From the IMG/VR virus record IMGVR_UViG_3300030107_003870, positions 1-25,702 of that record: 25,702 bases of DNA, one strand, 5' to 3'. The notes under the pieces were generated by a model that saw only the letters and a program-made list of their open reading frames with translations, was not told where the DNA came from and ran no database searches. Positions 1,033 to 20,730 of the stretch are shown here, piece after piece; the first letter of the stretch is position 1, and each line of letters starts with the position of its first letter. The DNA is from a virus. Position numbers and translations under genes: made by a program.

Positions 1033-1040
1033 GAAACACT

Positions 1041-1139
1041 GGCGGCTCGGTTCGACCCAGTAGAAGCCACCTTAATACCACGTCCGTTCATTCTTCTTTG
1101 AAGAACGCATGAAACCACATCATGGAACGGGGGTGTGGT
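1041..1139 (+). ncRNA. Highly structured, possibly pseudoknotted RNA segment downstream of hli
   Basis: Three helices can be drawn in under 100 bases. Helix B: GGCGGCT (1041-1047) with AGCCACC (1065-1071), one mismatch, enclosing GGT-TCG-ACC (1049-1057). Helix C: CGTTC (1085-1089) with GAACG (1103-1107), continued by TTC (1094-1096) with GAA (1100-1102). Helix D: ACCACA (1114-1119) with TGTGGT (1134-1139). CCGTTC (1084-1089) can instead pair with GAACGG (1125-1130) inside the loop of helix D, giving a pseudoknot that excludes helix C. A GGAG ribosome-binding site (1143-1146) follows directly, so folding could control translation of the mini-gene at 1154. The structure is drawn by hand; the regulatory role is inferred. 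Confidence 0.5.
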
Positions 1140-1153
1140 ACTGGAGTATTACA

Positions 1154-1207
1154 ATGACTGTAACACTAAGGTATCGTGGTGTTGAGTACACAAAAACTAC
1201 AAAGTAA
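1154..1207 (+). CDS. 17-aa peptide with a YRGV core, resembling the start of DUF4278 proteins
   Basis: An ATG at 1154 is preceded by GGAG (1143-1146) at 7-base spacing, one of the better ribosome-binding sites in the left half of the window, and opens a 17-codon frame reading MTVTLRYRGVEYTKTTK. The LxYRGVxY core resembles the N-terminus of cyanobacterial DUF4278 proteins, a short family of unknown role that I recall for its conserved YRG motif. The frame is also open from an upstream ATG at 1109, giving 32 residues beginning MKPHHGTGVWYW, but that start lies between two hairpins with no ribosome-binding site. It could be a host-derived remnant, a leader peptide or a functional microprotein. 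The stop is 10 bases before the next gene. Confidence 0.5.
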   Translation: MTVTLRYRGVEYTKTTK

Positions 1208-1217
1208 TTAACTTAAC

Positions 1218-20455: not shown

Positions 20456-20730
20456 GTAAACTAAAAGATGCTGCTGAGGATCAAGAACATCAAATTCAGA
20501 TCCTTGGAACATTCGTCAGACTTGGAGTTGTGTTATGGTCTGGGGCAATAATAACTTTAAACTACGTAGAAATACCTATGATACAAAAATCAGGTAACTC
20601 AGATATCACGTTCGTGGCAAGTGTGTTTACGGGCGCATTAGCCACATTTGGTTTGACCACTGGTAATAATAAGAATGGTAAGAATGTACCCGTAAATTGC
20701 CCTATGCTCACTAAAAAGAAAGAAGAATGA
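20422..20730 (+). CDS. Holin-like small membrane protein (102 aa)
   Basis: The protein has a charged N-terminus (MEEKQKEKSLLGKLKDAAED), two membrane segments at about 28-48 (LGTFVRLGVVLWSGAIITLN) and 62-80 (ITFVASVFTGALATFGLTT), and a basic C-terminus (TKKKEE). This is the layout of class II holins, which open the inner membrane at lysis. Its place after the tail fibre genes and before the small terminase corresponds to the holin gene 17.5 of T7. I see no endolysin in the window. A structural membrane protein is an alternative, as similar proteins occur in cyanomyoviruses without proven function. It overlaps the next gene as ATGA. Confidence 0.6.
   Translation: MEEKQKEKSLLGKLKDAAEDQEHQIQILGTFVRLGVVLWSGAIITLNYVEIPMIQKSGNSDITFVASVFTGALATFGLTTGNNKNGKNVPVNCPMLTKKKEE

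Follow-up and report, generated by a model that had tools for sequence, protein, structure and literature searches.

A phage-type glutamine-II riboswitch in T7-like cyanophages with a microprotein reading frame as its likely expression platform

What does the structured RNA that follows hli in this viral DNA sense, and which reading frame does it control? The window, by which we mean the whole stretch of 25,702 nucleotides analysed (positions 1 to 25,702 of IMG/VR record IMGVR_UViG_3300030107_003870), comes from a 40,362-base virus that carries one copy of the RNA family RF01704. A sequence-only reading of it had proposed an undescribed, pseudoknotted RNA with two exclusive folds controlling a 17-codon peptide in a photosynthesis module. 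The motifs it pointed to are in place: CCGTTC at 1084-1089, GAACG at 1103-1107, GAACGG at 1125-1130, within the loop of the hairpin that follows, GGAG at 1143-1146 and ATG at 1154. The layout of a translational switch, an aptamer and then a Shine-Dalgarno (SD) motif and start codon, is also there. The features, in order, are:

upstream of hli: psbA, C-terminal part
871-1032, + strand: hli, 53 aa, upstream neighbour lying outside the switch (PHROG high light inducible protein, E 5.5e-21)
1040-1069, + strand: conserved upstream hairpin, UGGCGGCUCG-N3/4-(G)UCGA-N3/4-CAGWAGAAGCCA, absent from Rfam
1071-1082, + strand: leader, 5' strand of helix P0, pairing with 1175-1186 (conserved core 1075-1082 with 1175-1182)
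1082-1139, + strand: Glutamine-II ("downstream-peptide") riboswitch aptamer, RF01704 (cmscan 59.7 bits, curated threshold 33)
1085-1089 (CGUUC) with 1125-1129 (GAACG): aptamer pseudoknot
1091-1096 with 1100-1105: aptamer helix P1
C1108 with G1130: aptamer long-range pair
1114-1121 with 1132-1139: aptamer helix P2
1137-1175, + strand: helix P3, the initiation hairpin (1140-1142 with 1170-1172, 1145-1147 with 1165-1167, 1149-1153 with 1159-1163, AUG in the loop)
1137-1139 with 1173-1175: P3 extension, which would break the base of P2
1143-1146, + strand: GGAG, Shine-Dalgarno motif of the microORF, by sequence
1154-1207, + strand: 17-codon microORF, MTVTLRYRGVEYTKTTK and stop (TAA 1205-1207); 1175-1186 serves at once as the 3' strand of P0
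1218-1574, + strand: gp222-like cyanophage outer-membrane beta-barrel protein (OMP; Pfam PF24653 Phage_OMP, E 1.4e-41), its ATG 10 nt beyond the microORF stop

A T7-type major capsid protein gene is among the neighbours, after OMP. Two further elements lie nearby: an inverted repeat, GGCGACCCGAACTTTCGTCATCGCC, at 820-850 between psbA and hli, and a second structured RNA at 2118-2250, CACCUCAGAGUCGGACC ... GACGGUGGGA, ahead of the major capsid gene, in its leader. The first stem of the latter covaries across 122 distinct copies, the capsid gene lies downstream in 110/110 copies with enough sequence, and the RNA has no credible Rfam match.

Judged by its sequence, the RNA at 1082-1139 is a Glutamine-II riboswitch of phage type and not a new RNA class, since it belongs to a family with a crystal structure (RF01704; 6QN3, PMC6698751). 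RF01704 was the sole Rfam match in a scan of the whole window, and its E of 1.9e-13 places the fold far beyond chance expectation; in 14 control genomes its covariance model gave no match. The pseudoknotted RNA proposed before is thereby upheld, CGUUC:GAACG (1125-1129) being the true pseudoknot of the class. Every ligand-contact residue named in PMC6698751 is kept in the window, including G1107, C1128 and G1129 as mapped on that paper, and from these intact residues we infer that the phage aptamer would bind L-glutamine selectively. The covariation suggested as a test of structure is present in P1 and P2: across 152 distinct viral aptamers nearly all positions of both helices pair, compensatory changes of several types occur, and shuffled partners pair far less. 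A MAFFT alignment of 56 cassettes, taken from the same loci as our other cassette counts, gives P1 98.7% and P2 99.0% of cells paired; both helices covary there, and the pseudoknot and the long-range C:G pair (C19:G41 of the class) are invariant (56/56). For the complete structure, 93.4% of cells pair in this alignment against at most 49.8% for slid versions, and 203 cells are double changes against 62 after shuffling. Some viruses have insertions of roughly 30-45 nt in P1 (L301, L404, L422, L453, L465, L484; L573:1450-1510), one of which, CGTCAGCCAGGACAAGTTACCAGCATCGG, recurs across several viral contigs. Tandem Glutamine-II-like matches occur at L080:5881-5971 and in the record of L007 (G079:C1:7039-7137), the latter scoring just under the Rfam threshold.

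The element is widespread in phages. An aptamer DNA pattern matched at least 120 stretches in IMG/VR, protein searches brought 75 OMP loci and 80 hli loci, and a pattern for the upstream hairpin added further loci; the riboswitch is present in over 100 viral contigs. Nine cultured T7-like cyanophages have it (P-SSP7, P-GSP1, S-CBP1, 9515-10a, NATL2A-133, NATL1A-7, P-SSP6, P-SSP10 and P-SCSP-R27W), eight confirmed by the covariance model and P-SSP6 by sequence similarity, and in none of the annotated cultured-phage regions inspected is it marked. In P-SSP7 the microORF lies at about 20,592-20,645. All 61 genomes of the Prochlorococcus group searched carry it, each having between one and seven matches. 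According to a review on glutamine synthetase in cyanobacteria, the type-2 glutamine riboswitch is confined to marine picocyanobacteria (PMC6316151); an earlier paper on the motif assigns it to cyanobacteria and to marine samples while it mentions cyanophage in connection with other motifs, and a literature search that covered papers apart from their supplements found none on Glutamine-II in phages. The gene upstream of the cassette differs among relatives, being psbA, hli or many others, which makes the supposed link to a photosynthesis module incidental. One contig of a bacterial and archaeal genome collection (L219) has a phage-type cassette and then an OMP-like ORF, and is probably phage DNA within a host assembly.

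What, then, is being regulated? Riboswitches of this class stand, within the 5' UTR, ahead of a short ORF of 17-100 aa that carries a conserved amino-acid motif (PMC2864571), and the window likewise has its 17-codon ORF downstream. Of 215 distinct viral cassettes, 200 have a YRG-containing ORF downstream, and an SD-like motif precedes 183 of these. In a set of 165 distinct complete viral ORFs every member has the second Tyr (TAC 140, TAT 25), Thr is present in 144 with all four codons used, and Lys or Arg stands in 156; since YRG was required for entry into the set, its own invariance is in part built in. Because these Y, T and K positions lie outside the helices and are conserved with synonymous variation, the peptide appears to be translated and selected as a protein too. 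The short coding frame that had been proposed is therefore real, and its kinship with DUF4278 (PF14105) holds with one correction: what the phage peptides match is the YRG at the C-terminal end of the profile (positions 47-57 of 57), not its start. That match is weak, with phage peptides of 20 and 39 aa scoring 16.7 and 17.7 bits against a gathering cut-off of 25.3; these longer peptides were scanned, the window's 17-mer being too short for Pfam. We thus regard MTVTLRYRGVEYTKTTK as a minimal relative of the DUF4278 motif and not as a member of DUF4278, the scanned peptides falling below the Pfam cut-off.

Behind the peptide, OMP starts a median of 9 nt past the stop, and an SD-like motif precedes it in 0/122 cases, which suggests that it is translationally coupled to the microORF, possibly by reinitiation. 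All hairpin-bearing cassettes with enough sequence (46/46) have OMP downstream. These observations would also suit a microORF that is merely a regulatory leader, with the switch loading ribosomes onto OMP and the peptide functionless. However, at 63 loci found from the riboswitch pattern alone (among the matches listed), OMP follows in 11, another gene in 23 and no ORF within 150 nt in 29, and a leader without function would not account for Y, T and K codons that are kept as amino acids. Moreover, the lack of an SD argues but weakly for coupling: of 15 other ORFs checked in the window, 10 likewise have no SD-like motif. We consider the leader reading improbable, though it survives better than the other alternatives. 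OMP as the general target was rejected, as this is true of hairpin-bearing cassettes but not of every cassette; the SD and ORF counts across cassettes instead point to the peptide as the common target and OMP as a clade-specific second one.

If the peptide is the target, one might ask how its translation is switched, and here the codons themselves come into play. Folding whole cassettes first revealed P0, in which the leader 5' of CGUUC pairs with the Arg-Gly-Val codons of the peptide; its predicted probability in the window is 0.9997 with the aptamer constrained and 0.85 unconstrained. Over 124 distinct short cassettes the predicted register has 7.1 of 9 standard pairs, and no shifted register between -6 and +6 exceeds 4.9. 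The third base of the Arg codon is Watson-Crick with leader position -5 at a frequency of 0.82, against 0.55 shuffled (0/5000; AU 78, GC 24), rising to 0.975 against 0.50 in hairpin-bearing cassettes, and the third base of the Gly codon pairs with leader -8 at 0.65 against 0.41 (0/5000). In one virus (L032) Arg is AGA and the leader carries UCU where others have ACG or GCG. The Arg third-base cell (+0.36) is the largest in the entire leader-by-codon matrix; some off-diagonal cells reach +0.27, so relatedness contributes to this signal. The shuffle controls leave relatedness in, and a sister-pair test had few informative pairs. The predicted probability of P0 is greater than 0.5 for 84% of the 160 cassettes folded and for 100% of the hairpin-bearing ones, compared with 4% when leaders are shuffled; about 16% of short-peptide cassettes are without P0. 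Predicted SD accessibility is 0.39 with and without the leader, and that of the AUG goes slightly up with P0, so P0 alone is not the lock; as a direct SD occluder it was rejected, ensemble folding giving no support. A leader that mimics the 5' strand of P2 was also rejected, as it fits the window alone and not its relatives. In three loci (L022, L033, L105) the leader sequence UUCGUAC could pair along 7 bases with the GUACGAA immediately 5' of the AUG; this pairing would occupy C1 of the pseudoknot and is possibly another solution to the same switch.

The second helix, P3, joins the end of P2 (GGU) and the SD spacer to the Lys/Arg-Tyr-Arg codons. The spacer base and the third position of the codon preceding Tyr are CG in 60, UA in 16 and GC in 8 of 95 cassettes, which is Watson-Crick at 0.89 against 0.46 shuffled (0/3000); 19 cassettes whose peptide has a long N-terminal extension show the pair too (0.84 against 0.38, 0/3000). 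In the 56-cassette alignment the P3 column pair 72:133 shows CG 35, UA 10 and GC 7, with 19 double changes. Codon usage fits both helices: Arg is CGY (CGU/CGC) in 160/165 ORFs against 24% of arginines in this genome, Gly is GGY (GGU/GGC) in 161/165 against 66%, and the first Tyr is TAT in 159/165, whereas the second, outside the helices, is TAC in 140/165; the rows are related, so p-values for these biases are merely indicative. Sequence comparison shows that codon choice in the microORF obeys P0 and P3. The microORF is thus a clear example of selection that apparently acts twice on one very short reading frame, on the peptide and on the RNA. Given the compensatory changes and the codon bias, it is likely to be the expression platform as well as a coding sequence.

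Upstream of all this stands the hairpin at 1040-1069, the first of the three strong helices noted before, which is real and covaries in relatives. Its pattern occurs once in the window and in at least 120 stretches of viral contigs, with 114 distinct contexts among the matches listed; we left out six unrelated GC-rich chance matches without the riboswitch and five at contig ends. In 103/103 usable copies (among the matches listed) it lies 14-16 nt 5' of the Glutamine-II CGUUC, and its first inner pair is found as GC, AU, UA and CG among 19 distinct inner sequences, 100% paired against 56% shuffled. Origin as a tRNA remnant or Rfam element was rejected for want of a credible match, as was a pairing of its CAGUA with the SD spacer UACUG, because a CAGA variant keeps the spacer and CAGU meets several spacers. 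Our guesses are that it insulates the leader from the upstream gene or serves RNA processing. It is also conceivable that the hairpin, P0 and P3 all serve RNA stability or processing, yielding a compact RNA cut from the late transcript, and have no part in ligand switching. The fixed spacing of the hairpin, the closure of the whole unit by P0 and the indifference of predicted SD accessibility to P0 would agree with this. Yet selection for stability alone does not require invariant pseudoknot and ligand-contact bases, and the covariation of P3 is centred on the initiation region; we rate this explanation as unlikely, marginally more so than the functionless leader.

As for the switching step itself, P2 and P3 are mutually exclusive at their bases, because GGU pairs either with ACC (P2) or with UAUC of Tyr-Arg; P0 is compatible with the aptamer, so the step rests on this short overlap. 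The two exclusive folds of the sequence-only reading, in which CGUUC pairs in turn with the 3' strand of P1 (1103-1107) and with the loop at 1125-1130, are very doubtful: the alternation is possible in the window and all 5 of its pairs, G-U counted, can form in 112/152 aptamers, but CGUUC never varies and hence shows no covariation (zero double changes), the alternative is broken in 27/148 aptamers through a changed outer P1 pair (A-U, G-U or G-C), it is a near-automatic product of P1 and the conserved CGCA, and by itself it leaves the SD untouched. P2 against P3, with P0, are the better-supported candidates. For the class, PMC6698751 deemed a translational mode probable and expected, without identifying it, a second fold in which the ribosome-binding site (RBS) is occluded. 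P3 is a candidate for that fold; P0, P3 or both may have been described earlier. In-line probing cited in the same paper found P2 formed without ligand, which counts against P2/P3 switching.

Taken together, we think it likely that a phage-type glutamine-II riboswitch controls translation of the microprotein, via P0 and P3 and as an ON switch, the direction being taken from the class literature (PMC6698751, PMC6316151). At low glutamine, the P0/P3 fold would keep the SD and AUG within a hairpin, with P3 extended into GGU at 1137-1139 at the cost of the base of P2. In a glutamine-rich host the ligand would stabilise P1, the pseudoknot and P2, and GGU would be held in P2; P3, deprived of its base, would let the SD open and the peptide be made. 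OMP, about 9 nt downstream and without an SD of its own, would probably be fed by reinitiation after translation of the peptide. By analogy with what DUF4278 proteins are thought to do, the peptide, which is a stripped C-terminal version of that motif, would most likely act on the nitrogen metabolism of the host. More tentatively, and at somewhat short of an even chance, we propose that T7-like cyanophages have a distinct riboswitch architecture, with microprotein codons as the platform (RGV with the leader, and K/R-Y-R with the spacer in competition with P2) and an undescribed upstream hairpin, that reads host glutamine to adjust the microprotein and OMP in infection.

Our comparison suggests that cyanophages read the nitrogen state of their host in infection, and with cultured carriers such as P-SSP7 the proposed sensing is directly open to experiment. 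It also offers, in the phage version, a concrete candidate with compensatory changes for the RBS-hiding fold expected in PMC6698751. How does this element compare with known systems? It shares with RF01704 and 6QN3 the consensus, the P1-pseudoknot-P2 fold, the long-range C:G pair, the ligand contacts, the short downstream ORF and the position just upstream of the SD; it differs in its phage operon, and what it appears to add to the known motif are P0, P3 and, in a subset, the covarying upstream hairpin. The few host leaders inspected are without P0-like complementarity, and several have an NtcA-like GTAN8TAC box just upstream. In picocyanobacteria, DUF4278 proteins stand under glutamine riboswitches and usually accompany the Glutamine-II class, as with PMM1846 and the N-terminus of IF17 (PMC6316151). 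The phage peptides share their YRG core and riboswitch class (a host paralogue scores 42.9 bits), but are mostly 12-20 aa long (others 33-65 aa) and match the C-terminal end of the profile only, below the cut-off. Finally, Glutamine-I (glnA, RF01739) riboswitches occur in the T4-like cyanophage S-CREM1 and the methylophage Melnitz (PMC9964418, PMC9004378); these too are phage-borne glutamine riboswitches, and they differ from ours in aptamer class, architecture, phage type and associated genes.
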